From positions 35,712 through 99,711 of the forward strand of contig NZ_JONJ01000014.1 in NCBI RefSeq assembly GCF_000711825.1: a DNA stretch of 64,000 nucleotides, read 5' to 3'. The stretch comes from [Clostridium] aminophilum DSM 10710. Lineage in GTDB: Bacteria; Bacillota; Clostridia; Lachnospirales; Lachnospiraceae. A program made the position numbers and the translations under genes. Shown piece after piece: positions 17,476 to 30,440 of the stretch (its first letter is position 1; every line of letters begins with the position of its first letter). Below the pieces are notes generated by a model. The model made no database searches, was not told where the DNA came from, and was given only the letters and a program-made list of their open reading frames with translations.

Positions 17476-17530
17476 TTGAAATTTAGTAATAGAAAAATAT
17501 AATACTTATTAAGACGTTATATAATGATAC
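17476..17530 (+). promoter_or_regulatory. Promoter and putative GntR operator of the sialidase-MFS operon
   Basis: TTGAAA (17476) and TATAAT (17498) are 16 bp apart. Immediately downstream is GACGTTATATAATGATAC (17513-17530), which recurs in variants before dctQ and hyuA. A repressor bound here would cover the transcription start. Confidence 0.6.
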
Positions 17531-17570: not shown

Positions 17571-18698
17571 ATGGGAGAGTTAAGAGAGAAAAATAATATT
17601 ACGGAAATGATCACGAAACCAAAGGATGTATTAAATAAAAATGCCGTTCGGATAATCACAACTTGTCACGAAGGTGGATACGATATGTACCGTGTACCAG
17701 GTATTATTACAGCTTCAAACGGTGATATTTTGCTGTATTTTGAGGGCCGACAGAGGGATGAGAAAAGAAGATCATTACTAATGGTTCGAAGTAAAGATAA
17801 CGGAAAAAACTGGTCGGACATACAAATACTTAAAGCGGATAGCGGAATCCATATGTTGCATAATCCGCTTATGCTTTGCGATCAAATCGGAAGAGTTTTC
17901 CTGTTTTGGAACGTGGATTATCGGCGTTTGTTTTATCAGATTTCCGGTGATAGTGGATATTCCTGGGGAGAACCATGTGAGATCACAGATGTGATTCTTG
18001 ACTGGAGGAGGGATGGTTGGAATGTGAGACAGTTCGCGGTTTCTTGTGGACACGGAATCAGCACGAAAAATGGAGAATTGATCGTTCCACTTTGGATGAG
18101 TTCTTCTGAGACAGCACATTCACCAGCAGTATTTGCGACGATAAGCAGTCAGGACGGAGGGAGGAGCTGGTCGAGAAGTAATATTGTTGGATCTGAAAAT
18201 GGAGTTGAGAATCCAACAGAGGGATCGATCGTGGAATGTGAAGACGGGAGACTGTTGGCGACACTACGACACGGAAGTCAAAAGGACAGAAAAAGAGCAT
18301 TTGTACAGGGCAGGATAAACCGCTGGGGGATACCATATTTGAACGAGGCGCTGCCCGACCCAATTTGTGCAGGTAGTCTTTTGCGTATGAAGGATGGAAG
18401 TCTTCTGTTTTCTAACTGTGCATTTGAGGATATTGCGTGTTTAGAGGCAAGGAGAAGAGGAATAGATTTAAGCTGGAGTAAAGATGCTCGGCAAAATCTC
18501 CGGATTCGCCGAGGTGGAAGAAATCCAGGAGAATGGAATGAGGGATTGTTTATTACGAAAGAGGCCGGGTATTCTGATTTGGGCCAGAGTACCGATGGAA
18601 AGACGGTGTACTGCTTTTTTGAACAAGGATGGATAGAAGGAAACTGTATTTTGAATAAACACCTTGTATTCCTTTCAATTCCAGCCTCGATTATATGA
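17571..18698 (+). CDS. Sialidase-like (GH33/BNR) hydrolase without a signal peptide
   Basis: A 375-residue six-bladed propeller hydrolase of the sialidase superfamily. It has the YRVPGI motif (Arg of the carboxylate-binding triad) near residue 40, and FEGRQRD near residue 58 with the acid/base Asp position. Three Asp boxes are present: SKDNGKNW, SGDSGYSW and SQDGGRSW. The glutamate is in PTEGSIVECEDGRLL, followed by the TLRHG Arg, and AGYSDLGQS has the nucleophilic Tyr position. There is no signal peptide or carbohydrate-binding module, so it acts in the cytosol. The ATG at 17571 has a GGAGGTG site; an upstream ATG at 17535 does not. It is followed 13 bases on by an MFS permease, which would import its glycoside. 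No nan genes are nearby, so sialic acid as substrate is doubtful. Confidence 0.85.
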   Translation: MGELREKNNITEMITKPKDVLNKNAVRIITTCHEGGYDMYRVPGIITASNGDILLYFEGRQRDEKRRSLLMVRSKDNGKNWSDIQILKADSGIHMLHNPLMLCDQIGRVFLFWNVDYRRLFYQISGDSGYSWGEPCEITDVILDWRRDGWNVRQFAVSCGHGISTKNGELIVPLWMSSSETAHSPAVFATISSQDGGRSWSRSNIVGSENGVENPTEGSIVECEDGRLLATLRHGSQKDRKRAFVQGRINRWGIPYLNEALPDPICAGSLLRMKDGSLLFSNCAFEDIACLEARRRGIDLSWSKDARQNLRIRRGGRNPGEWNEGLFITKEAGYSDLGQSTDGKTVYCFFEQGWIEGNCILNKHLVFLSIPASII

Positions 18699-18711
18699 TA
18701 GGAGAGTTGCA

Positions 18712-19893
18712 GTGTTTTACAGCGTATATTTTATCTATTATGGAGCCTATGCATTGTTCTCCAGTTACATTGTTTCCTATTTGACTACTTGTGGACTTAG
18801 CGCAACAGTATGTGGGATCGTAACAAGCTTCATGCTTCTTACCAATATCATTATGCAGCCGGTTTCCGGTTTCCTGACGGATTCCTTTCTGACGGTTAAG
18901 AGATATCTGATTTTCGCCAGCGGTTTCTTGGTGATATGGTACGCTTTTATTCATATAGTCCGGTCGAAGATAATCCTTTGCGTGATCATGATCGTGGTAT
19001 CAGCAGGATTTTCATATCCGTTTATTCAGTTGATGGACGCATGGGTTACAGATGCTGCCGAGCAGATAAATTCCGGAATCGTGTACAGTAAAATTCGTGC
19101 TATCGGTTCTATTGGATTTGCCATCATATCGTGGGTTGCGGGATACTATTTTGAGAATAATGGATATGAGTTCTATTTTTTGATTCAGGCAGCACTGTTT
19201 ATTCTTATAATCCCTTTTTTGAAATGCCTTCCGGAAATAGTGCCCGGAAACAAAAAAAACACATCAGAAAAAATAGTCCAGTCCCAGTTGACCATGCAGG
19301 AGTCCTTCAAAATCCTGTTTCGTAATGTGCGATTCAAACTTTGTACCATTCTGTTCATTTTGTATTGGATGAGTCATCGACCGATCGGAAGTTTTCTGGC
19401 ATTGTTTTGCCGACAGTATGACAATGGAGACATTCTATTTGGTCATGTATGTGCAAGCGGGGCGATAGGAGAATTTTTGATGTTGTTTTGCGCAGAGAGA
19501 ATACGGCAGATGACGTCTCTTCGAACTGAGTGTACTTTGGCGTTACTTTTAAATCTTTTTCGACCTGTTATGATAATGGTTTTTCCTTCCGAGGGGAGTC
19601 TTTATTTCGGGCAGATTCTTCAGTCCTTCAGTTTTGCAATGTACTTTGATGTTTCGGTTGAACTGTTTTCATTATATGCGGATAAGCGATTACACAATTT
19701 TACTGTTTCCATGGGGTTAATGGTATCAAATGTAATCGGGACGCTTAGCGCAAATATATTGGGAGGAAAGTTGTACGATCTCTTCGGTGTCAAAGGAAAT
19801 CTATGGTTGAGCTTTGTGGGATCCATCCTTCTTATCATCTTATATTTTCTTGTCTATTCTCATTTATTCATGATCAAAAAAACAGAAGGATGA
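18712..19893 (+). CDS. MFS permease (LacY/nucleoside-symporter-like)
   Basis: 393 residues with 12 predicted membrane helices, split by a polar loop at about 185-205. Features include an N-terminal FYSVYFIYYGAYALFSSYIV helix pair and the MQPVSGFLTD loop between helices 2 and 3, equivalent to the GxxxD motif. The family includes proton symporters for disaccharides and nucleosides. I use the GTG at 18712, because AGGAGAG lies 5 bases upstream; a TTG at 18664 would overlap the sialidase gene. It probably imports the small glycoside cleaved by the cytosolic sialidase-like enzyme. The base composition is AT-rich, like the rest of the island. Confidence 0.85.
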   Translation: MFYSVYFIYYGAYALFSSYIVSYLTTCGLSATVCGIVTSFMLLTNIIMQPVSGFLTDSFLTVKRYLIFASGFLVIWYAFIHIVRSKIILCVIMIVVSAGFSYPFIQLMDAWVTDAAEQINSGIVYSKIRAIGSIGFAIISWVAGYYFENNGYEFYFLIQAALFILIIPFLKCLPEIVPGNKKNTSEKIVQSQLTMQESFKILFRNVRFKLCTILFILYWMSHRPIGSFLALFCRQYDNGDILFGHVCASGAIGEFLMLFCAERIRQMTSLRTECTLALLLNLFRPVMIMVFPSEGSLYFGQILQSFSFAMYFDVSVELFSLYADKRLHNFTVSMGLMVSNVIGTLSANILGGKLYDLFGVKGNLWLSFVGSILLIILYFLVYSHLFMIKKTEG

Positions 19894-19998
19894 TATTAAG
19901 AACAGCGTGATTAAGACAAAGAAAGTGCACTTGTTGCACAAATTTTCAGATAAATATTCATCATAATATACAAATCGCTGTCAAGATGCAGGAAAGTG

Positions 19999-20062
19999 TT
20001 GATTTCATAGAAAAGGAAGATTATCATTCAGTATATAATGATATATGACGATATATAAGTTA
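19999..20062 (+). promoter_or_regulatory. Promoter and putative operator of the TRAP operon
   Basis: TTGATT (19999) and TATCAT (20022) are 17 bp apart. GACGATATATAAGTTATG (20047-20064) follows and resembles the motif at 17513 and 24430. An overlapping TATAAT at 20034 is an alternative -10 box. Confidence 0.5.
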
Positions 20063-20088
20063 TGATGAAGATAAGGAGGGATTAAGAC

Positions 20089-20109
20089 ATGAGAATATTT
20101 TTCTCATGA
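20089..20109 (+). CDS. Six-codon leader ORF coupled to dctQ
   Basis: An ATG lies 9 bases after a strong AAGGAGGG site and reads MRIFFS, then TGA. The stop overlaps the dctQ ATG as ATGA. A small hairpin, GAGAA/TTCTC (20091-20105), spans the mini-ORF. dctQ itself has no other good ribosome binding site, so re-initiation from this mini-ORF is likely. Confidence 0.5.
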   Translation: MRIFFS

Positions 20110-20660
20110 GCGAACGTATGAAAAAAATACTGATAAAAACAGGCGACATACTGGAAAAGTTTAATCATGGCTTGGAATTGCTCACAGGTTTTCTGCTATT
20201 TGCATTTATGACGCTCCTGTGTTTTCAGGTAATGATGCGGTATGTTTTTTCAAACCCGATCTACGGGATTGATGAGTTGGTTGTTGCCCTCATGATTTGG
20301 AGTTGTTGTCTTTCTTGGGCCACGGTGTATTGGCAGAACGGCCACGCAATTCTGGAATTCATTGTAAAGAATCTTCCGCAGTCGGTGAGGACAGTAATAT
20401 TCAATGGCATAAACGTGATTGTTATGATTCTTCATATTACGTTTATTCCGGGAAGCATGAAGCTTTTTGAATTGCAGAAGAAACAGGCACCGGTAGGAGG
20501 GCTTTTTTTTAGCAAAGCATATTACTACGCCCTTCCGGTTCTTGTTATGGCTGTGATTCTATCGGTTTACACGGCATATAAACTAATTGCGTATCCGGTC
20601 ATTAAGTCGGACCTGATCGTGGCACCACTACCAAGTGAGGAGGGAAACGCAATTGATTAG
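20106..20660 (+). CDS. TRAP transporter small permease subunit (DctQ family)
   Basis: 184 residues with four membrane helices (about 25-45, 60-80, 100-120 and 140-162), the usual DctQ topology. It has family phrases such as CFQVMMRYVFSNPIYGIDELV and AVILSVYTAYKLI. It forms the membrane complex with the large subunit encoded next, and supports ion-gradient-driven uptake from the binding protein. It overlaps the large-subunit gene by 8 bases, which indicates coupled translation. The start is an ATG at the end of a six-codon leader ORF. It belongs to a three-gene TRAP operon in the catabolic island. Confidence 0.92.
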   Translation: MSERMKKILIKTGDILEKFNHGLELLTGFLLFAFMTLLCFQVMMRYVFSNPIYGIDELVVALMIWSCCLSWATVYWQNGHAILEFIVKNLPQSVRTVIFNGINVIVMILHITFIPGSMKLFELQKKQAPVGGLFFSKAYYYALPVLVMAVILSVYTAYKLIAYPVIKSDLIVAPLPSEEGNAID

Positions 20661-21948
20661 TCTTGATATGTGGTTGTTCCTTTATTTCGGAACATTTGTT
20701 GTTCTTATTCTTCTCCAGATGCCTATCACCTATGCGATGTGTGTGTCAGCGCTGGAATTTCTGATTGTCAATCATCAGCAGTTTGTCATGTTTGCGCAGA
20801 AGACGGCTGCATCTTTTTCAGACTTTAATATGTTGGCTCTTCCATCGTTCCTGTTCGTGGGATGTTTTATGAATGAGGTTGGGTTAACCGATCAGCTGTT
20901 TAATATGTGTGAGAAGTGGCTTGGACATTTATCAGGAGGCCTTGCACACGCAAATATTCTGGCGTCCATGATTTTTGCGGGAATGTCAGGATCTGCACTC
21001 GCCGATGCAGGAGGACTAGGAACCATCGAGGTAAAAACCATGAGCGATGCCGGTTATGACAAGGATTTTTCCATTGCCGTTACGGCAGCATCTTCAGGAA
21101 TCGGACCAATCATTCCTCCGTCCATTAACTTTGTTGTATGGGCTTTTTTGTCGGGATGCTCGACACTTGCCATGTTTGATGCCGGATATTTGCCTGGTAT
21201 TTTGATGGGTGTCTCTATGATGGTGTGGAGCACAATTTCCATAAAAACACAGGGGATTCAGTGTCCAAGAACCAGAAAGTTCACCTTGAAAGAGAGAGCA
21301 GAGGCTACGTTTCAGGCGCTTCCGGCACTTGGTGGACCCGCCATTTTGATTTTTGGCGTATCTTCCGGCGCGTTTACTCCAGCAGAGTGCGGAACCGTTG
21401 CTGCAATGTATTGTGTCATTTGTGCGGTGGTTCTGAAAAAATTCAATCGTAAAATGTTCTTCCGGGCTCTTCGGAATACTGTTTCCAGTGTTGGAATGTC
21501 AATGTCTCTTTGCGCAGCCGGGTTGATTTTTGATTGGGTTATTGTCACATCCGGACTGGTTACGGTTATGTCCAATGCGATTTTGGCTCTTGGAAATAAG
21601 GTAATCATTATTCTGTTTCTTAATGTGATCTTGTTGTTCCTTGGCTGTTTCATTGGGTCCATGCAGATTCTGATCATGGTGGCGCCGCTTCTGATGAATA
21701 TCGCAAATGCAATTGGTATGAGTTACATTACCATGGGTGTTATGGCGGTCCTTAACGTTACGATCGGACTGATTACGCCACCGATGGCTCCGGCGTTATT
21801 TGTAACCTGTAAGGCTACAGGCGGAAAGTTCGACACAGCATTAAAATATACAGTTCAGTTTCTGATACCGATGGTGGTAACCCTTCTTTTGGTTGCATTT
21901 GTTCCGGAGATTACGATGTTCATTCCGAGACTTCTCGGTGCGGTGTGA
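20653..21948 (+). CDS. TRAP transporter large permease subunit (DctM family)
   Basis: 431 residues and about 12 hydrophobic segments with DctM signatures: LALPSFLFVGCFMNEVGLTDQLF, SGGLAHANILASMIFAGMSGSALADAGGLGTIEVKTM, and AASSGIGPIIPPSINFVVWAF. The late segment GLITPPMAPALFVTCKATGG matches the substrate/Na+ site region of the family. A TTG start at 20653 is favoured by a GAGGAGG site inside the end of dctQ; an ATG at 20668 is an alternative. It carries out sodium-coupled uptake of an organic-acid-type solute. Adjacent enzymes suggest a glycated or lactam-type ligand. Confidence 0.93.
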   Translation: MISLDMWLFLYFGTFVVLILLQMPITYAMCVSALEFLIVNHQQFVMFAQKTAASFSDFNMLALPSFLFVGCFMNEVGLTDQLFNMCEKWLGHLSGGLAHANILASMIFAGMSGSALADAGGLGTIEVKTMSDAGYDKDFSIAVTAASSGIGPIIPPSINFVVWAFLSGCSTLAMFDAGYLPGILMGVSMMVWSTISIKTQGIQCPRTRKFTLKERAEATFQALPALGGPAILIFGVSSGAFTPAECGTVAAMYCVICAVVLKKFNRKMFFRALRNTVSSVGMSMSLCAAGLIFDWVIVTSGLVTVMSNAILALGNKVIIILFLNVILLFLGCFIGSMQILIMVAPLLMNIANAIGMSYITMGVMAVLNVTIGLITPPMAPALFVTCKATGGKFDTALKYTVQFLIPMVVTLLLVAFVPEITMFIPRLLGAV

Positions 21949-22065
21949 CAAGGTGCAGTAAAAATGATGTGGTTCGTTATTATGCAACAGCAGATGAACC
22001 GAAAAAATTGAACGTAATGTAGAGATGTTATATAAACATCAAACTTTTAAAGGAGGTTTAAATTT

Positions 22066-23238
22066 ATGAAAAAGGCAGTAAGTCTGGTTTTAGCCGGGAC
22101 CATGGTAGCCGGAATGTGCGCATGCAGCGGAGCACAAACACAGTCAGCCACGAATGCGCCGTCATCGACAGCAGCGGTGACAGAGGCTACAACCGAAGCC
22201 GCTGGATCAGCGGAAACTTCGGCAACAGAAAGTGTCAGCATGGATTTGGATGAAGCATCAGCGAAAAAAGCTGCAGAATCCATCGATTATTCCAAAGCAA
22301 CGGTTGTGAAATTTGGAAATGCCGGAGCGGTCGGCGAACCAGCATATGCAGCATGCGATTATTTCTGCAATCTGATCAACGCGAACAGTGGCGGAAAATA
22401 CAGATTTGATTTTTATCCGGCAGAGCAGCTCGGTAACGAGGCAACCATGATGGAGAACCTTCAGACCGGACTTCAGGAAGGCATGATGAGTTCATTGGAT
22501 TCTCTTGCATCGTATTCTACAGATCTGAACATTCTTTCTATGGCGTTTGCATTTGGCTCATCGGAACAGATGATGAATTTTCTTGGTTCAGACGACGCGA
22601 AAACGCTTTGGGGCGATTTGGATGACAATGGATTCCATGTTGTAGCGTATGGATACAAAAAGAACCCAAGAGGATTCTTTGGAAAGAAGCCGTTAAAAAC
22701 TCCGGCAGATATGAAGGGGATGAAATATCGTATTCCGCAGCTTCCGATTTTTGAGAAGAATGCGCAGGCGATGGGGGCAACGCCGGTTGTTGTTTCCTGG
22801 TCGGAATATGCATATGCACTGAAACAGGGAACGGTAGATGGTGGCGAATGCTCGAAAGACGCATATCGGTCTGCAGGTCTTTATGAATCTGCACCGTTTT
22901 TCTCAGAGGTGGATTACGCATATCCGGTAGAGTGCATTTATTTTGCAAATGACTGGTGGAATGCGCTTCCGAAAGAAGAACAGGAGATCATTACTGTGGC
23001 AGCAAAAAAGAGTCAGGATGTTTATAACAACCAGATCAAAGCTACATGGGAAGCAGATCGTAAGTGGCTGGAAACAGAAGGAAATGCTACTTTTGTGGAC
23101 ATTGATAAAGATGCATTTATGGCGGCTGCAGCGGACCTTGGATCCCAGCTTCAGGCAGAGGGATTCTTTAAGACACCGGATCTTTATGATCGTGTAGTAA
23201 AACTTAACGAAGAATACGAAAAGACACACAAGAATTGA
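22066..23238 (+). CDS. TRAP transporter solute-binding protein (DctP family, lipoprotein)
   Basis: 390 residues. A signal peptide with a lipobox near VAGMCAC (Cys at 18 or 20) is followed by a long Ala/Thr/Ser linker to about residue 75. The binding domain begins ATVVKFGNAGAVGEPAYAA and has the DctP landmarks: FYPAEQLGNEATMMENLQTG, GMKYRIPQLPIFEKNAQAMGATPV with the ligand-carboxylate Arg, WSEYAYALKQGTVDGGE and VECIYFANDWWNALP. The ligand therefore probably carries a carboxylate. An AAAGGAGG site precedes the ATG. It is the third gene of the TRAP operon, followed by a terminator-like hairpin. Confidence 0.93.
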   Translation: MKKAVSLVLAGTMVAGMCACSGAQTQSATNAPSSTAAVTEATTEAAGSAETSATESVSMDLDEASAKKAAESIDYSKATVVKFGNAGAVGEPAYAACDYFCNLINANSGGKYRFDFYPAEQLGNEATMMENLQTGLQEGMMSSLDSLASYSTDLNILSMAFAFGSSEQMMNFLGSDDAKTLWGDLDDNGFHVVAYGYKKNPRGFFGKKPLKTPADMKGMKYRIPQLPIFEKNAQAMGATPVVVSWSEYAYALKQGTVDGGECSKDAYRSAGLYESAPFFSEVDYAYPVECIYFANDWWNALPKEEQEIITVAAKKSQDVYNNQIKATWEADRKWLETEGNATFVDIDKDAFMAAAADLGSQLQAEGFFKTPDLYDRVVKLNEEYEKTHKN

Positions 23239-23334
23239 TGATTTGAGTGGTTAAATATCATGGCGTGTGTCGGAGAGTGAAAAGAAAATGCAGTGAGCCG
23301 AATTAGCTTTTCTGCATACTTTCATGATCAACCA

Positions 23335-23381
23335 AGAGCCATGTGAACGCTGTTAATATAGCATGACACATGGCTCTTTTA
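23335..23381 (+). terminator. Terminator or attenuating hairpin between dctP and the kinase
   Basis: A 12-bp perfect stem (23335-23346 with 23368-23379) with a 21-base loop and a short T run. It may reduce read-through from the TRAP operon into the enzyme genes. Confidence 0.7.
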
Positions 23382-23422
23382 TCAAGTACACAAACTAGAG
23401 GCATGATACAAGGAGAGAACTC

Positions 23423-24343
23423 ATGGTTAAGGTGATCGGAATTGGAGATAACGTCTGTGATATTTATATTCACACCGGAATAATGTATCCGGGAGGTCAG
23501 GCCTTTAATTATGCTGCATATGCAAGAATGCTTGGGGCAGAAAGTGCGTTTATTGGCGCGCATGGGGATGATCCCGTTGGGCAACGTGTGATAGAGATTT
23601 TGGATCAGCGCGGTATTGATCGAAGCCATACAAGAATATATCCGGGCGAGGAGAATGGCTTTGCGTGCGTAAAACTGGAAGACGGGGATCGGGTTTTTTG
23701 CGGAAGTAACAGGGGAGGAGTACTTCAAAAACATCCGATCATTCTTCAGGAAAATGATCTTCAGTATATTTCTGGATTTGAGGCGGTTCATATGTCCAAT
23801 AATGGATTTACCGATTTGGAACTGCCGAAATTGAAGGGGTTAGGTCCGTGGATTAGCTATGATTTTTCTTATCGATGGACGGAAGAGGAACGGGTGAACC
23901 GTGTATGCCCATACGTTGACGTAGCATTTGCATCATGCAGTGATCTGTCAGAAGAAGAGATATGGAATCTGTGTGAACACATGCATGAAAAAGGGTGTGA
24001 CATTGTTGTTGCTACGCGGGGAAGCGATGGGGCATTTGCCAGCGATGGAGAAAACCATTTTCGACAGCTGCCGCACTTGGTTCAGGCGATTGACACCATG
24101 GGTGCGGGAGATAGTTTTGCGTCGGCGTTTATGGTCGCAGTAGCAGAGAATGTGACACAAATGGGAAAAGATGTATGGAAAAAAAAGGATGATCGAAAGG
24201 CCATTATCCGGAATGGTCTAGAGAGAGCTGCAGAGTTTTCGTCGAAGATATGTTTGATTTCTGGAGGATCCGGAGACGGGATCAGAGTTCCGGAAGAAAT
24301 GTATAACAGAATACAGGAAATTACAAAGACTGTGTCACGTTAA
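23423..24343 (+). CDS. PfkB-family sugar kinase, FrlD-like (fructosamine 6-kinase type)
   Basis: 306 residues of the ribokinase/PfkB fold. It begins KVIGIGDNVCDIY, close to the GDNCVDIY start of fructoselysine 6-kinase FrlD, followed by PGGQAFNYAAYARMLGA. Further FrlD-like points are GAHGDDPVGQRV, GDRVFCGSNRGG, WISYDFSYRW and DVAFASCSD. The PfkB signature DTMGAGDSFASAF carries the catalytic base Asp230. It would phosphorylate the sugar part of an Amadori-type compound using ATP, giving the substrate for the SIS deglycase encoded later in the cluster. The C-terminus is about 40 residues longer than E. coli FrlD. AAGGAGAG precedes the ATG. The exact substrate is inferred from context. Confidence 0.85.
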   Translation: MVKVIGIGDNVCDIYIHTGIMYPGGQAFNYAAYARMLGAESAFIGAHGDDPVGQRVIEILDQRGIDRSHTRIYPGEENGFACVKLEDGDRVFCGSNRGGVLQKHPIILQENDLQYISGFEAVHMSNNGFTDLELPKLKGLGPWISYDFSYRWTEEERVNRVCPYVDVAFASCSDLSEEEIWNLCEHMHEKGCDIVVATRGSDGAFASDGENHFRQLPHLVQAIDTMGAGDSFASAFMVAVAENVTQMGKDVWKKKDDRKAIIRNGLERAAEFSSKICLISGGSGDGIRVPEEMYNRIQEITKTVSR

Positions 24344-24381
24344 GAGAGGGAACGGATAGGGTAAAATCACAGGGATTGCAC

Positions 24382-24445
24382 TTGACATAAGAAAACAGCG
24401 GTGCTATTTTGATATTACAATCATCATATATCGTTATATAACAAT
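24382..24445 (+). promoter_or_regulatory. Promoter and putative operator of the hyuA-hyuB-deglycase operon
   Basis: TTGACA (24382) and TATTTT (24405) are 17 bp apart. ATCGTTATATAACAATAC (24430-24447) lies just downstream and matches the core of the 17513 site. The arrangement repeats that of the two other island promoters. Confidence 0.6.
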
Positions 24446-24497
24446 ACAAAAGGTCCTAAAGAAAAGCATTGTCAGTTATCAGAGAGGTGAACGATTT

Positions 24498-26561
24498 ATG
24501 GGGTACATGATCGGCGTAGATGTGGGCGGAACTTTTACTGATTTTTCCGTATTTAATCTTGAGACGGGGGAACTGTTTAATTACAAGGACAGTTCAACTC
24601 CGGATGATCCTTCCAGAGCAATTGTAAAGGGGGTAAAGGATGTCTTAGACATCAAGAAAGCAGCCCCTTCAGAAGTATCGTACCTTGCGCATGGAACCAC
24701 TGTTGGTACAAATGCGCTGATCGAAAAGAAGGGCGCGAAGGTGGGACTGATTACAACAAAAGGTTTTAAAGATCTTATGGAAATCGGCACACAGAGAAGA
24801 CCTTCATTATATGACTTGAAGGCACAGAAACCATATCCGTTGATTCCGTCAGGCCTTAACTGCGGCGTTACGGAAAGAATTCTTTATGATGGTTCTGTTG
24901 AGACCGAGCTTGATGAAGAAGAAACAAGAGAGGTTATTCGGTATTTAAAGAATAAGAATGCAACTGCCATTGCTGTGTGCACGTTATTCAGTTTTATTAA
25001 CCCGGATCACGAGCAGAGGATTCGAAAACTGATTGAAGAAGAGTATCCAGAGGCGTATATTACGACTTCCTGCGAAATCAGTCCGGAATTCCGCGAATAC
25101 AGCCGTATGAGCACCACGGTTCTGAATAGTTATCTTGGGCCGGTGATGAAGAAGTACGTTCATAATTTTAGAGAATCCGTTCATGATATGGGCGTGAACG
25201 TGGAACCATACATTACCATGTCAAATGGATCCATCATTTCCATAAAAGAAACCATTGACTGTCCGATCAAATGTGCTGTATCCGGGCCTTCGGCCGGAGC
25301 AGTTGCCGCAGCTTTCATTGGGAAACAGTGTAATGCAGATAAGATTATTACATTCGATATGGGGGGGACTAGTGCGGATATCTCTCTGATCGAGAACTAT
25401 ACGCCACAGGTCACAAATGAACGCGATGTAGAGGGATATCCTTGTAGAATTCCAATGATCAACATTATTACAATTGGTGCAGGGGGTGGTTCGATCGCGA
25501 AGATTGATGCCGGCGGAGCGTTAAAAGTAGGGCCGGAATCTGCAGGGGCAACACCGGGACCGGCCTGCTACAAGCGCGGTGGTGAGAATCCTTGTGTTAC
25601 GGATGCGAACATCGTTCTTGGAAAACTGAACCAGAAGAAAATTCTTGGCGGACGAATGGATGTTGATGTGGAGTTGGCCAAGAAAGCAATTCGGGAAAAA
25701 ATCAGTAATATGAGCGGATTAACGACGGAAGAAGCTGCGAATGGAATCATCACTGTTGTGAATTCGAATATGGTTCGGGCTGTAAGAAGTGTATCTGTTG
25801 AGAAAGGGTATGATGTTCGCGAATTTAGTCTTATGGCATTTGGCGGTGCAGGTCCGCTTCATGCTTGTGAGGTGGCGAAAGAACTTGGTATGAAGAGAGT
25901 CATTATTCCGCCTCATGCAGGAACACTTTGCTCTCTGGGACTTCTGCTTGCAGATACCAGGTTTGATATCAGTAGAACATCAATTGTAGATGGAACCGCG
26001 GAGAATCTGAAAACCGTAAATAAAATGTTTGAAGATATGATTCGGCAGGGAACGGAAGCGCTCAACCGGGAAGGAATACCGGAAGTGCGGAGGAACTTCG
26101 AGTTTTCGATTGATATGCGGTATCTTCGGCAGAACTTTGAGATTAATATCCCTGTTTCAACCGGAAAAATAGATGAGGAGCTGTTGAAAGAATCCATAGC
26201 AGCGTTTCACCGTGAGCATAAAAGAAGCTATGGATACTGTAACGAGAATGCAACGGTGCAGTTTGTCAGCTATCGTCTGACAGCGGTTGGAACTATTGAT
26301 AAACCGGAGTTTGTAAAAAAAGAATTGCATCCGGAAGTACCTGTACCGGCTCCGGTTGAAATCCGGGACGTTTTATTTCAGGGAGAGTCAGAGAGGATAA
26401 AAACGCCGGTTTACAAACGCTTTGATTTTACTGCAGGACAGAGTATTCCTGGCCCGTGCATTTGCGAACAGATGGATTCGACACTGGTCGTTCCGAAAAA
26501 TTGGGTTATTCATGTGGATGGATACGATAATCTGCAGATTGACTATAGAGAGGAGAACTAA
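24498..26561 (+). CDS. Hydantoinase/oxoprolinase subunit A (HyuA family)
   Basis: 687 residues. The N-terminal hydantoinase domain begins MIGVDVGGTFTDFSVF, an actin/ASKHA-type phosphate loop, with YLAHGTTVGTNALIEKKGAKV following. The central Hydant_A domain has AVSGPSAGAVAAAF, ITFDMGGTSADISLI and TIGAGGGSIAKIDAGGALKVGPESAGATPGPACY. The C-terminal domain starts near residue 510. With HyuB it would use ATP to phosphorylate and hydrolyse a lactam or cyclic ureide, such as 5-oxoproline or a hydantoin. Its stop is one base before the hyuB start, so the two are co-translated. The combination with Amadori-type enzymes is unusual. Confidence 0.93.
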   Translation: MGYMIGVDVGGTFTDFSVFNLETGELFNYKDSSTPDDPSRAIVKGVKDVLDIKKAAPSEVSYLAHGTTVGTNALIEKKGAKVGLITTKGFKDLMEIGTQRRPSLYDLKAQKPYPLIPSGLNCGVTERILYDGSVETELDEEETREVIRYLKNKNATAIAVCTLFSFINPDHEQRIRKLIEEEYPEAYITTSCEISPEFREYSRMSTTVLNSYLGPVMKKYVHNFRESVHDMGVNVEPYITMSNGSIISIKETIDCPIKCAVSGPSAGAVAAAFIGKQCNADKIITFDMGGTSADISLIENYTPQVTNERDVEGYPCRIPMINIITIGAGGGSIAKIDAGGALKVGPESAGATPGPACYKRGGENPCVTDANIVLGKLNQKKILGGRMDVDVELAKKAIREKISNMSGLTTEEAANGIITVVNSNMVRAVRSVSVEKGYDVREFSLMAFGGAGPLHACEVAKELGMKRVIIPPHAGTLCSLGLLLADTRFDISRTSIVDGTAENLKTVNKMFEDMIRQGTEALNREGIPEVRRNFEFSIDMRYLRQNFEINIPVSTGKIDEELLKESIAAFHREHKRSYGYCNENATVQFVSYRLTAVGTIDKPEFVKKELHPEVPVPAPVEIRDVLFQGESERIKTPVYKRFDFTAGQSIPGPCICEQMDSTLVVPKNWVIHVDGYDNLQIDYREEN

Positions 26562-26562
26562 G

Positions 26563-28311
26563 ATGGGACAGAAAAAAGTAGACACTGTTACGGTTGAGGT
26601 TGTTCGGAATCTTCTCATGTCGATTGCGGAAGAAACATATGGAATTATTGTTCGAAGTGCGTATTCGACCAATATGAAGGAACGACGGGATGTTTGTACT
26701 GCCGTGATTGATCCGGATGGAAACAGTGTTGCACAGGTAGAAAGTCTAGCTGCACTTTTGGGTTCTTTGTTGAGCGTTGTTCCGAATATCTATGAGAAAT
26801 TCGGAAGAGAGAATATAAAGCCGGGAGATATGTTTGTGGCAAATGACTGTTACCATGGAGGAGGTAACCATCTGCCGGATATTGTATTTGCCGCACCGGC
26901 TTTTGTGGACGAAAAGCTTGTCGGTTGGATTGCAAATATCGGTCATCATTCGGATATTGGCGGAAAGGTACCGGGTTCCACATCAGGAGATGCAGATAGC
27001 ATGTTTCAGGAGGGTTTACGGATCCCTGTGATCCGAATTCGGGAAAATGATGAGATTTTACCGAGTGTTATGGATCTGCTTCTTGATAATTCTCGGGTAC
27101 CTCAGGAACGATATGGAGATCTTACCGCACAAATGTCAGCAAACCTGATCGGAGTACAGAGAATTCAGGAGGCATACGGGAGATATCACGATATACTGAT
27201 CGACTGCATGAAAGAACTGGTAAGTTATTCGGAACGCCGTGTAAGGGCGGTCGTAAAAGAGCTTCCGGATGGGGTATATGAATTTACGGATTATGTGGAC
27301 GGTTGCGGAGAGAAATACCCGGATCCGCTTCCGATCAAGGTTAAAGTCACCATAAAAGAAGATGACCTCACCATTGATTTTACCGGCACTGCAGATCAGA
27401 TTGAGGCACCGATCAATGTTCCATATCCATGTACCAAAGCTGACGTATTCTTTGCTATCAAGGCACTGATGGGTAGTGACATACCGGTCAATGAAGGAAT
27501 CAATCGTGCGATCAGGATTATTGCGCCCAAGGGCTGCATTTTAAATCCGATTGAACCGGCACCGGTCGGGGCACAGATGGATTGCAGTCAGCGAGTTCCG
27601 GATGCGATTTTCGGGGCATTGGCACCTTTATTTCCGGAGAGCGTTACTACGGCTGGAAACGGAGCATGCACAACAACCATTCTTGCCGGAACCGGCGAGA
27701 TTGGAACGGATTCGGTCTTCATTTTTCATGAGGTAATTGCAGGAGGCGGTGGAGCAAGCAAAGAGTATGATGGATTATCAGGAACCCAGGTTAACATGAC
27801 CAACACGTCCAATATGCCGATTGAAGCGACGGAAATGGAGTTTCATAAGATACTGGCGCGTAGGTACGAATTGATGAAAGATTCGGGCGGAGCTGGAATG
27901 ATGAGAGGTGGTTTGGCAATCAATCGTGAATTGGAAATCCTGCAGGATGGTGTAAAATACACCGGTCTGGGGGATCGACACAAATTCCATCCATGGGGAT
28001 TAGCCGGAGGTCTGGAAGGCGGATGCGGAGCATTTTATCGAATTGAACCAGATGGTACGGTAACCCAAATGGGGCATAAGACGACGTCAAAAACCATGAA
28101 TAAAGGAGATATTATCCGCGTTGTTACACCGGGGGCAGGCGGATATGGGAATCCGAAGAAGCGAGATGCAGAACTCGTATTGCGTGATGTGATTGAAGAA
28201 AAGGTATCGCAGAAGGCTGCTCGGGACCTCTACGGTGTTGAGATTATTGAGAAAAATGGCGACTACGTCATTGATGAAAACGCGACTCAAAAGCTTAGGG
28301 CAAATGAATGA
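26563..28311 (+). CDS. Hydantoinase/oxoprolinase subunit B (HyuB family)
   Basis: 582 residues of the Hydantoinase_B family. It begins with TVEVVRNLLMSIAEETYGIIVRSAYS and has FVANDCYHGGGNHLPDIVF, with metal-binding His and Asp residues. It continues with NIGHHSDIGGKVPGS and the glycine-rich AGGGGASKEYDGLSGTQVNMTNTSN segment. HWGLAGG-like text (FHPWGLAGGLEGG) and TPGAGGYGNP end the catalytic region. It supplies the hydrolase site that receives the phosphorylated intermediate made by subunit A. The start is the ATG at 26563 behind AGAGGAGA. A long upstream in-frame extension into hyuA is not credible. Confidence 0.93.
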   Translation: MGQKKVDTVTVEVVRNLLMSIAEETYGIIVRSAYSTNMKERRDVCTAVIDPDGNSVAQVESLAALLGSLLSVVPNIYEKFGRENIKPGDMFVANDCYHGGGNHLPDIVFAAPAFVDEKLVGWIANIGHHSDIGGKVPGSTSGDADSMFQEGLRIPVIRIRENDEILPSVMDLLLDNSRVPQERYGDLTAQMSANLIGVQRIQEAYGRYHDILIDCMKELVSYSERRVRAVVKELPDGVYEFTDYVDGCGEKYPDPLPIKVKVTIKEDDLTIDFTGTADQIEAPINVPYPCTKADVFFAIKALMGSDIPVNEGINRAIRIIAPKGCILNPIEPAPVGAQMDCSQRVPDAIFGALAPLFPESVTTAGNGACTTTILAGTGEIGTDSVFIFHEVIAGGGGASKEYDGLSGTQVNMTNTSNMPIEATEMEFHKILARRYELMKDSGGAGMMRGGLAINRELEILQDGVKYTGLGDRHKFHPWGLAGGLEGGCGAFYRIEPDGTVTQMGHKTTSKTMNKGDIIRVVTPGAGGYGNPKKRDAELVLRDVIEEKVSQKAARDLYGVEIIEKNGDYVIDENATQKLRANE

Positions 28312-28337
28312 TGGTTTAAGGAAAGGAAGAAACAATC

Positions 28338-29342
28338 ATGGTTATGGGAATGAGCGAAGTTACGGAAGTAATGAATAGAGTAAAGGAAGAGTTTGCGAAG
28401 AGAGAGGGAGGTTTGCAGACTGTTATTTTTGTGGCTTGCGGCGGATCGCTTGCTTCAAGTTATCCTGCAAGATATCTTTTGAATGCAGAAGCTCGCAATC
28501 TTCGGATTGCCGGATATAATAGCAATGAGTTCGTCTATGCAACACCTAAGGCGGTGGGATCGAATGCACTTGTCATTTGCACATCGACGAAGGCTACGGC
28601 TGAAACGGTGGAAGCGGTAAAGACTGCGAATAAGCTGGGCGCAGTAACAGTAGGCCTTACAGGTTATGATGACAGTCTTACTGCACAGAGCGCACAGTTT
28701 TATATTACCTATTATCATGCAGATGAGTGGTATAAAGATCCTTCCCTAATTCATTATAACAGTCAGGGTACTGCTTTAAAAATTGCTTTTTGGCTCTTGA
28801 AAGAGTATGAAGGATACGAGTATTACGATCAGGCTCAGAAAGCATTTGAATTGATGCCGGAAATCTATGGAAAAGCTTACGAAAAGGTAAAAGAGGATAC
28901 GGCAAAATTTGCCATGGATTATAAGGACGATAAGGTTTGGAACGTTCTCGGAAGCGGAGTTACGTATGAAGCGGTATATTCCGATGCTTTCTGCTTTTTC
29001 CAGGAGATGCAGACGGTTCATTGTGTTCCGATTCATTCCGGAGAGTATTTCCACGGGGCATTTGAGACGACCGATAAGGACCTTGCGATACTTCTCCTGA
29101 AGAGTGCTGGACGAACAAGATATCTTGATGACCGAGCAGAGAGATTTCTGAACAAATTTGCCGGACACCACTATATTATTGATGCGGAAAAACTTGGCTT
29201 GGATCGATTAGACGAAAAGGTTGCAGAGTATTTCAATTCGCTTCTTATTCATCCGATTACGAAACAGTTTATTACAGCGATGGGGGAGGTAAGGATGCAT
29301 CCGATGTCATATCGTAGATATATGTGGAAATTTGAGTATTGA
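28338..29342 (+). CDS. SIS-domain sugar-phosphate deglycase, FrlB/FraB-like
   Basis: 334 residues with two SIS domains. The first has TVIFVACGGSLASSYPARYLL and NALVICTSTKATAETVEAV. The second has VWNVLGSGVTYEAVYSDAF and the family motif SGEYFHGAFE, with Glu236 and His239, comparable to SGEFRHGPLE in FrlB. The C-terminus RRYMWKFEY mirrors the RRY...EY ending of FrlB. Such enzymes split 6-phosphorylated Amadori compounds into glucose 6-phosphate and a free amine. They are distinct from the glutaminase-linked GlmS. It follows hyuB by 26 bases and closes the operon. It is the expected partner of the FrlD-like kinase. Confidence 0.87.
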   Translation: MVMGMSEVTEVMNRVKEEFAKREGGLQTVIFVACGGSLASSYPARYLLNAEARNLRIAGYNSNEFVYATPKAVGSNALVICTSTKATAETVEAVKTANKLGAVTVGLTGYDDSLTAQSAQFYITYYHADEWYKDPSLIHYNSQGTALKIAFWLLKEYEGYEYYDQAQKAFELMPEIYGKAYEKVKEDTAKFAMDYKDDKVWNVLGSGVTYEAVYSDAFCFFQEMQTVHCVPIHSGEYFHGAFETTDKDLAILLLKSAGRTRYLDDRAERFLNKFAGHHYIIDAEKLGLDRLDEKVAEYFNSLLIHPITKQFITAMGEVRMHPMSYRRYMWKFEY

Positions 29343-29386
29343 TGACCAGCTGTACACTCGTGACTTTAGTCGAGTGAGGCTTCACA

Positions 29387-29400
29387 ATTAAGACGTTATA
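29387..29400. promoter_or_regulatory. Fourth copy of the island motif
   Basis: ATTAAGACGTTATA at 29387-29400 is identical over 14 bases to 17508-17521. It lies between the deglycase stop and its terminator. No promoter is evident here, so it may be a spare operator or a relic. Confidence 0.4.
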
Positions 29401-29426
29401 GTTTCTTTTCCTTATCATATTCGATA

Positions 29427-29466
29427 GGCTGGATAGTCTCCAAAACGGGAGCATTATCCAGCCTTG
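29427..29466 (+). terminator. Terminator of the hyuAB-deglycase operon
   Basis: A perfect 9-bp stem (29427-29435 with 29455-29463) is followed by TTG TTG. It lies 85 bases after the stop. The stretch 29467-29659 is very AT-rich and should hold the gntR promoter, but I cannot fix it. Confidence 0.65.
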
Positions 29467-29659
29467 TTGCGTAAGAAAAGACTGTATGTGTCAAATACTT
29501 AAAAGAATTTTATTATTGCATTCAAAATAAATTAAAATATGAAGAAAAAATATGATCTATATTGGAATGATGATATAGTATGTGTTATGATGATTTAAAC
29601 AATAAAAATAATATTTTACTATAGATTGCGGAAAGCGTTTGTGGATTGGGGGGAAGCGA

Positions 29660-30385
29660 ATGGGAACCATTGAGTATGATAGCGTTATTCCTTTGTACCA
29701 GCAGATTATTGATGCTGTGAAGAAAGATATAACGACAGGCGTCTATAAGTCCGGAGAAAAGCTTCCGATCGAGAGTAAACTGAGTGAAATATACAGTGTC
29801 AGCAGAATTACAATACGACGGGCAATTGATGAGCTTTGTAGTCAGGGATTGGTTGAGAAGAAACAGGGAAAAGGAACATTTGTCTGCACAAAAACGATTT
29901 ATAAATCTTTGAATACGGAAAAAATCAGTTTTACGGAGCTATGCATTGCAAACGGAATGAAGGCAAGCTCAAAACTTCTTAGTGCAAAAGTGGTGTGTCC
30001 GAAAGACCATACGGTTTTGGCAGAATTGGGCCTGAAGCCGGGAGAACAGGCTGTTGAAATTGTTCGTTTACGTTATGCGAATGAGCGACCGATTGTTATT
30101 GAGACAAATGTTTTTCCCATGGAATATGCGTTTCTGTTAAATGTGAACTTAGATCATGATTCTCTATATCGATATTTACGAGAGGAAAAAAAGGTAAATA
30201 TTTTTCCGGGAAAGCTGTCCTTGAGAATTGTACGTACAAATGCGAAGCAGTCGAAAATGTTGGAAGTTCCGCGGAACACGCCGGTATTAAATACATTTGG
30301 TTATGCGCTGACAGAAAATGGAAAGGTGCTTCATACGATTCAAAATGTAGGGTACGGCGAGGACTTTGATTTAGTTATTCGCTGA
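29660..30385 (+). CDS. GntR-family regulator with UTRA domain
   Basis: 241 residues of the HutC subfamily. The winged helix spans about residues 8-75 (LYQQIIDAVKKDITTGVYKSG, RITIRRAIDELCSQGLV and GKGTFVC). A UTRA ligand-binding domain follows at about 90-238, with LKPGEQAVEIVRLRYANERPI and TPVLNTFGYALTENGKV. Regulators of this subfamily control frl and fra genes, binding a sugar phosphate or phosphorylated Amadori intermediate as inducer. The start is the ATG at 29660 after a GGGGGGAAG site. It is transcribed alone, in the same direction as the island, and is the likely repressor at the repeated GACGTTATATAA sites. Confidence 0.9.
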   Translation: MGTIEYDSVIPLYQQIIDAVKKDITTGVYKSGEKLPIESKLSEIYSVSRITIRRAIDELCSQGLVEKKQGKGTFVCTKTIYKSLNTEKISFTELCIANGMKASSKLLSAKVVCPKDHTVLAELGLKPGEQAVEIVRLRYANERPIVIETNVFPMEYAFLLNVNLDHDSLYRYLREEKKVNIFPGKLSLRIVRTNAKQSKMLEVPRNTPVLNTFGYALTENGKVLHTIQNVGYGEDFDLVIR

Positions 30386-30403
30386 TGAATTCTTAATTCT
30401 TTG

Positions 30404-30440
30404 ACCGGGAAAGGATGGTATTCCTTTCCCGGTTTTTCTT
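30404..30440 (+). terminator. Terminator of the gntR-type gene
   Basis: An 11-bp perfect stem (30404-30414 with 30423-30433) is followed by a T-rich run. It marks the right end of the catabolic island. Confidence 0.85.

Follow-up and report, generated by a model that had tools for sequence, protein, structure and literature searches.

Here we describe a catabolic locus of [Clostridium] aminophilum DSM 10710, found in a 64,000-nucleotide stretch of its genome (contig NZ_JONJ01000014.1, positions 35,712 to 99,711; this whole stretch is called the window below). A PfkB-family kinase, a SIS-domain deglycase, the two subunits of an ATP-dependent lactamase (HyuA and HyuB), a tripartite ATP-independent periplasmic (TRAP) importer and a GntR/UTRA regulator are encoded there together (Table 1). 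With moderate confidence, we propose that the locus lets the cell import and degrade an N-glycated lactam acid, most likely fructosyl-pyroglutamate: HyuAB would open the ring at the expense of ATP, and the kinase and deglycase would release glucose 6-phosphate and glutamate.

In the proposed scheme, the TRAP system DctPQM, perhaps together with a major facilitator superfamily (MFS) permease, would import the acid. HyuA would then activate the lactam carbonyl with ATP and HyuB would hydrolyse it at a metal site, giving fructosyl-glutamate. On either the closed or the opened compound, the kinase would phosphorylate the fructosyl group at C6, and the SIS deglycase would cleave fructosyl-glutamate 6-phosphate; the GntR protein would keep three promoters repressed in the absence of a fructosamine ligand. 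Ring opening should precede deglycation, since the deglycase mechanism requires an amine and a lactam nitrogen cannot play that part. We infer every step, the substrate and the order from protein family and gene context.

A clade of HyuAB is linked with Amadori-type genes

Genome contigs were scanned with exact peptide words from the SIS protein, a procedure that favours close SIS relatives and makes the presence of a SIS gene in each locus a matter of construction. This gave 23 loci. Complete HyuA and HyuB genes accompany the SIS gene in 14 of the 18 loci where it is at least 66% identical to that of the window; the exceptions are L010, where HyuA is absent and HyuB partial, L003 and L020, with neither, and L019, whose stretch is too short to tell. 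Among the five loci with less than 50% SIS identity, one from Petroclostridium (L021) has HyuAB, two (L022 and L023) lack it and two (L024 and L025) are short. The same HyuAB clade is thereby paired with an Amadori-type deglycase in 15 other loci (HyuA at least 63% identical), which we call linked, and on a Priestia plasmid, excluding the possibility, named with the original prediction for this DNA, that the linkage is restricted to this one genome. The kinase gene is present in 14 of the 15 linked loci, although cut by the edge of the stretch in L005, L007, L008 and L015; in the remaining one, L018, the contig begins past the expected kinase position. Within the fetched stretches, 10 of the 15 also carry a GntR gene and 8 a TRAP DctM gene, and an FrlC-like epimerase gene occurs in 8, directly upstream of HyuA in 7 of these.

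The Priestia plasmid, pBEH4 of P. filamentosa, was the best match in a HyuA search of 1003 plasmid records. Its genes stand in the row SIS-HyuA-HyuB-PfkB-GntR, so that, as in the window, all five functions lie side by side, but in another order, with MFS genes upstream, no TRAP genes in the stretch and a deglycase of a separate lineage. No report on the function of this cluster turned up, no search by name having been made.

For controls, 40 stretches around HyuA genes were taken, made up of 38 places from a survey of the phylum plus G001 and G043. G001, the last of the 40, holds the full gene set, and three contigs shorter than 5 kb were left uncounted. Around the distant HyuA genes of the 36 regions used (11.4-20 kb, HyuA 35-47% identical), we found no Amadori-type SIS or kinase gene in any (no match above 60 bits). 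Since the set recurs and these controls lack the partners, chance adjacency is rejected, and the linkage of this HyuAB clade with Amadori-type genes is real. The distribution of the set is patchy. Across 398 genomes of the phylum, its own included, HyuA was matched at E <=1e-100 in 52, with more than 47% identity in the window's own only; among 145 genomes (its own and relatives), SIS and HyuA both exceed 70% identity in only two, its own and G001.

Two of these loci merit description in their own right. L009 has a second HyuAB pair (L009:19021-20965; HyuB 56% identical, HyuA 47% and cut by the stretch end) on the other strand, about 8 kb from the main cluster. L003:8751-13600 encodes a kinase, a SIS protein (79% identical to that of the window) and a GntR regulator with no HyuAB, followed by a Na+/H+ antiporter family protein, and is probably an open-chain fructosyl-amino-acid locus. 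The lack of HyuAB there fits a deglycase that would act on an open-chain fructosyl amino acid.

The kinase and SIS protein are of Amadori type

The best NCBIfam model for the PfkB protein is fructoselysine 6-kinase (171 bits, cutoff 247), with ribokinase at 71 bits, and the protein is 42.5% identical to the kinase adjoining an annotated fraB. For the SIS protein, the best model is fructoselysine 6-phosphate deglycase (54 bits, cutoff 430), followed by GlmS (48 bits). Compared with solved structures, the SIS protein scores 250 bits against 3fkj, 202-229 against 9otj and its variants and 196 against 3eua, annotated as a putative fructose-amino-acid deglycase, versus at most 24 bits against GlmS-type chains; in one such comparison, FraB-type chains scored 227-250 bits and the isomerase domain of GlmS type 24. 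We take 9otj to be Salmonella FraB, the entry itself stating only SIS domain protein. Identity is 39% to annotated FraB, 36% to the SIS protein of plasmid pAoF64/95 and 22% to the annotated FrlB of Pantoea. Residues Glu214 and His230 of FraB, which presumably have the general acid/base roles in the deglycase, align with Glu223 and His239 of the window protein and are kept in 27 of 27 aligned sequences; the FraB-type Glu is changed to Ala in PDB entry 9otu as compared with 9otj.

Phylogeny agrees with these scores, all trees here being quick searches whose groups were named with gene neighbourhoods in view. In a SIS tree of 49 rows, the window protein falls in a clade of support 99 with FraB and a Klebsiella protein; the SIS proteins of pAoF64/95, pTiA6 and Priestia lie outside it and Pantoea FrlB is far off. 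Both the kinase and the SIS protein group with proteins of the FraB locus in trees that include few non-Amadori rows. By these comparisons the SIS protein is closest to Amadori deglycases and the kinase is Amadori-type, in keeping with the families first proposed for them and with no clustering among non-Amadori families, and the pair is predicted to act on a fructosyl amino acid. An approximately unbiased (AU) test rejects a single clade of all HyuAB-linked SIS proteins, L003 and L020 included (p = 1.7e-5), so the trees pair the HyuAB clade with at least two separate deglycase lineages. Our initial view of three lineages (gut-type, Petroclostridium and Priestia) was given up, as the AU test supports only two.

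HyuAB resembles caprolactamase and forms one clade with its linked relatives

NCBIfam places HyuA and HyuB closest to caprolactamase alpha and beta (624 and 260 bits, both under the 1000-bit equivalog cutoffs), and the closest solved relative of HyuA is N-methylhydantoinase (497 bits). Asp11 and Asp295 of CapA and Asp41, His99, Asp102 and His124 of CapB are named as ATP-site and metal residues (PMC8453981). By alignment, the CapA residues correspond to HyuA Asp8 and Asp287 and the CapB residues, in order, to the four HyuB ligands of Table 1, each of which is present in all 17 linked rows and all 10 opine rows. Thus HyuAB has the parts, ATP-site Asp and metal ligands found in CapAB, N-methylhydantoinase and 5-oxoprolinase, but differs from CapAB in that most pocket residues and the vicinal Cys pair of CapB are not kept. 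A comparison of HyuB rows also yielded 15 columns, Arg183, Ser68 and Glu426 among them, that the linked and opine groups have in common and few other rows share; we take these as a descriptive pattern and do not use them as ligand evidence.

HyuA trees were computed from 71 rows and from 61 rows that leave out eight of the longest branches, two near-copies and one fused sequence. The 17 linked HyuA rows form one clade in both (support 99 and 98, respectively), and a larger clade unites them with opine-plasmid proteins (99 and 96), among them those of pTiA6, pAoF64/95, Rhizobium, Martelella, Paracoccus, Sagittula, Microvirga and Neorhizobium. This larger clade also includes pTiS4 and the unlinked L104 and L111. 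The opine label was given to pTiS4 in the 71-row tree, where it takes three changes, and to Sodalis instead in the 61-row tree, where it occupies one side of a branch of support 100; the switch was made after the 71-row tree had been seen. On this phylogeny, HyuAB is a coherent partner of Amadori-type genes.

The same enzyme types occur on opine plasmids

In the original prediction, no described pathway was known to have this set of genes. Precedents exist: the same three enzyme types, HyuAB, SIS and PfkB, are already present in the opine regions (aga/moc, for the catabolism of agropinic acid and mannopine) of pTiA6 and pAoF64/95. HyuAB of these plasmids reportedly opens agropinic acid (Lyi and co-workers, 1999). 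HyuA and HyuB (45% and 42% identity) share one plasmid there with the SIS and PfkB proteins. On pTiA6, HyuAB and a flavin adenine dinucleotide (FAD) oxidoreductase lie at 169.8-174.9 kb, and paired genes for a fructoselysine 6-kinase and a SIS protein occupy 155.0-156.9 kb; on pAoF64/95, HyuAB is at 44.2-47.9 kb and SIS and PfkB are at 65.9-67.9 kb. The two modules are 14 to 18 kb apart on the opine plasmids, whereas they stand together in the window. The plasmids further have ABC importers and an oxidoreductase beside HyuAB, which we take to be AgaE, for the mannityl group, while the window has TRAP genes and no FAD oxidoreductase among its ten proteins.

On pAoF64/95, mocE is described as the final conserved gene, with a small traR-like open reading frame following after about 500 nt (PMC6341043). 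A 497-base gap separates the PfkB gene from the next annotated gene, which fits this position. Thus mocE likely matches the PfkB gene and, as the SIS gene lies directly upstream, mocD is likely the SIS gene. That report states that a mocD mutant makes deoxyfructosyl-glutamine but is unable to degrade it, and proposes a model in which deoxyfructosyl-glutamine relieves MrtR repression (PMC6341043).

With the fra and frl loci, the window shares a PfkB kinase, a SIS protein with the same Glu/His pair, a GntR regulator and a dedicated importer. In fra, however, the hydrolase FraE, an asparaginase, processes the amino-acid tail; the window has no such enzyme among its ten proteins, its predicted tail enzyme being the ATP-dependent lactamase HyuAB, and its importer is of TRAP type.

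Other plasmids carry related arrangements. A Klebsiella plasmid (L098:5989-11750) has adjacent genes for SIS, PfkB, an amidohydrolase, a YfcC permease and GntR, likely a further Amadori locus with a different tail-processing enzyme. In Microvirga (L141:6977-11660) and Neorhizobium (L142:6881-11806), HyuAB adjoins opine/octopine dehydrogenase genes, which suggests further N-substituted lactam pathways. Martelella pMM593 (L138:1552-11200) has a TRAP importer, an SDR protein, an FAD oxidoreductase, HyuAB and RidA, an aga-like set with TRAP.

Layout of the locus, importers and neighbouring genes

Scans of the ten locus proteins against Pfam and NCBIfam bore out the gene calls with which the analysis began (TRAP, PfkB, HyuA, HyuB, SIS and GntR/UTRA), to which two genes in the same region that had gone unmentioned, BNR and MFS, are now added (Table 1). 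The mechanical open reading frame of HyuB begins at 26422; the ATG given in the table comes after the HyuA stop. A hairpin with a T run at 23335-23381, in the gap between DctP and PfkB, was seen in the sequence and is absent from the terminator scan; it may end or attenuate the TRAP transcript.

Table 1. Features of the locus (window coordinates)
Feature	Position	Strand	Basis
Operator-like palindrome, 5' of BNR gene	17512..17529	+	18-mer, 4 mismatches; KTATATAAYRATA core at 17517-17529
BNR/sialidase-like protein	17571..18698	+	PF13088, 64.5 bits
MFS permease, MFS_1_like/LacY type; possible second importer	18664..19893	+	PF12832, 121.7 bits
Two overlapping operator-like sites, 5' of DctQ	20026..20053	+	5 and 4 mismatches to the 18-mer; exact core at 20031-20043
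DctQ, TRAP small permease	20106..20660	+	PF04290
DctM, TRAP large permease	20635..21948	+	PF06808, 290 bits; TIGR00786 above cutoff
DctP, TRAP solute-binding protein	22066..23238	+	Pfam/NCBIfam family match
PfkB kinase, FrlD/FraD-like, predicted fructosamine 6-kinase	23423..24343	+	NF007321, 171 bits; GAGD with Asp230
Best operator-like palindrome, 5' of HyuA	24429..24446	+	1 mismatch; 18 bases past -10-like hexamer
HyuA, ATP-binding lactamase subunit; predicted delactamase	24498..26561	+	Family match, trees, ATP-site residues
HyuB, metal-binding lactamase subunit	26563..28311	+	Asp43, His103, Asp106, His128 = CapB metal ligands
SIS-domain deglycase, FraB-like (predicted)	28338..29342	+	Glu223, His239 = FraB Glu214, His230
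GntR/UTRA regulator (HutC type), likely locus repressor	29639..30385	+	Pfam/NCBIfam match; relative in 10/15 linked loci
Terminator-like hairpin 3' of GntR gene	30403..30434	+	13-pair stem, T run

The TRAP genes had been taken to imply a carboxylate ligand. The importer is indeed there, and Arg222 of DctP lies within the motif that we take to bind a carboxylate, but TRAP is a weak clue to the ligand. Of the 15 linked loci, 8 show it; oligopeptide-type ABC genes are found near L005, L009 and L015, the three others that were scanned, and we dropped TRAP as a strong argument for a carboxylate because importers vary among the linked loci.

The BNR protein has no signal peptide by eye, and its best solved relatives are fungal sialidases, at about 56 bits. 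Relatives of the MFS gene are present in L006, L009, L011 and L014, and in L009 the BNR, MFS, kinase, FrlC-like, HyuAB and SIS genes stand in a single run. An operator-like site ahead of the BNR gene points to common control of the BNR-MFS pair and the locus, and both genes likely belong to its regulon; taken together, they give a hint of a substrate variant derived from a disaccharide.

A candidate operator is common to three units

The pattern KTATATAAYRATA, which was derived from the window's own sites, has 5 matches in the 3.11 Mb genome, of which 4 are at the locus, 5' of BNR, DctQ and HyuA, with an overlapping pair at HyuA; the reversed pattern has 0. The cores at BNR, DctQ and HyuA begin 14, 4 and 19 bases past the end of a -10-like hexamer. 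When up to 4 mismatches are allowed, the palindrome TATCGTTATATAACGATA is matched 9 times in the loci of 18 relatives, and 7 of these matches fall in the 300-base zones upstream of locus genes, which make up 9.3% of the bases. Twenty permuted palindromes searched in the same way gave means of 1.35 and 0.2. The corresponding figures are 4 and 3 (permuted, 0.2 and 0.05) at 3 mismatches and 26 and 17 (permuted, 13.9 and 2.15) at 5. The palindrome is the better test for an operator in the relatives: the 13-base motif at one mismatch gave 18 matches versus 15 in reversed sequence, and only its placement was better. These sites are a candidate operator that would be common to the three units and recurs in relatives, and the GntR/UTRA protein likely represses the locus.

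Fructosyl-pyroglutamate and the alternatives

Agropinic acid is N-mannityl-pyroglutamate, and fructosyl-pyroglutamate is its 2-keto form, which fits the position of HyuA in a larger clade with opine-plasmid proteins. We favour fructosyl-pyroglutamate as the best-supported substrate candidate because this clade unites HyuA with opine-associated enzymes, because relatives of MocD and MocE handle fructosyl-glutamine, and because N-fructosyl pyroglutamate is reported from tobacco extract (PMC12300879). The original prediction of a glycated lactam is thus partly supported, its pairing of kinase and deglycase with HyuAB holding while the uniqueness of the set is lost.

Several observations weigh against this assignment. 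The kinase, HyuA, HyuB and SIS protein alike fall short of their NCBIfam equivalog cutoffs. The HyuB metal ligands are also kept in 31-32 of the 32 other HyuB rows, and so mark a working enzyme type and not a substrate. The window HyuA is not inside the opine-plasmid group, whose members form a group of their own; the branching between linked and opine HyuA is an open fork in the 71-row tree, and the 61-row tree groups the linked rows first with pTiS4 and L111 (support 74). Separate gut-type and Petroclostridium SIS lineages are not demonstrable (AU p = 0.50). Importers differ among the relatives, with TRAP in the 8 of 15 noted above, the scheme does not account for the BNR protein, and the window lacks the FrlC-like gene that 8 of its 15 relatives carry. 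On the regulatory side, besides the origin of the operator pattern in the window itself, promoter-like matches are not in excess (38 versus 31.8 in shuffles, standard deviation 6.2), and an operator-like site looked for upstream of the GntR gene itself was not found.

If the locus were an ordinary fructosyl-glutamate or fructosyl-glutamine pathway, then HyuAB could serve for salvage, re-opening the lactam to which the substrate or its 6-phosphate cyclises spontaneously. L003, with the same kinase, SIS and GntR genes and no HyuAB, speaks for this, as does the degradation of alpha-glycated glutamine by relatives of MocD and MocE; we nevertheless think it rather unlikely, given that HyuAB is complete, and in one run with SIS, in most loci with a close SIS relative (14/18), and that an operator-like site stands immediately upstream of HyuA. 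Somewhat less probable again is the same enzyme logic with a different N-glycated ring acid as substrate, for instance a glycated hydantoin or other N-substituted lactam. At its pocket positions HyuB does depart from CapB and, in part, from the opine group, and N-methylhydantoinase is the nearest solved relative of HyuA, but the HyuA clade includes proteins beside opine genes, two of them adjoining opine dehydrogenases, which points to N-substituted amino acid lactams.

HyuAB might instead have an unrelated small ring as its substrate, such as that of 5-oxoproline or a hydantoin, and share only regulation with the Amadori pathway, as would suit a family that includes 5-oxoprolinases and hydantoinases. 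We regard it as distinctly improbable, since the linkage is clade-specific and involves two separate deglycase lineages, and the only PF03746 (LamB/YcsF) match of the genome, a PxpA-family protein, lies outside the locus on contig C16. Plain 5-oxoproline thus likely has another route, and we set aside its catabolism by this locus as unlikely, on a search that covered PxpA of the PxpABC 5-oxoprolinase. That unrelated catabolic genes adjoin one another by chance, for which the rarity of the cluster in the phylum sample might be cited, is scarcely credible when the set recurs in 15 loci and, in a different order, in Priestia, against 0 of 36 control regions.

Implications

Fructosyl-glutamine and fructosyl-glutamate cyclise to a lactam. 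Among the matches listed in the open-access literature, we found no microbial route for N-fructosyl-pyroglutamate. We see about an even chance of a broader conclusion, namely that Clostridia, gut kinds included, and a Bacillus-type plasmid carry a dedicated N-fructosyl-pyroglutamate pathway in which an opine-type, ATP-driven delactamase was joined at least two times to different Amadori deglycases, so that the opine chemistry of crown gall would also salvage Maillard products. If the proposed pathway is right, the locus would be a marker gene set for fructosyl-pyroglutamate use, and a HyuAB clade lacking an assigned role would be explained. It would also suggest a modular rule in which a kinase-deglycase core is combined with a tail-processing hydrolase: the asparaginase in fra, the amidohydrolase beside the Klebsiella pair, and HyuAB in the locus described here.

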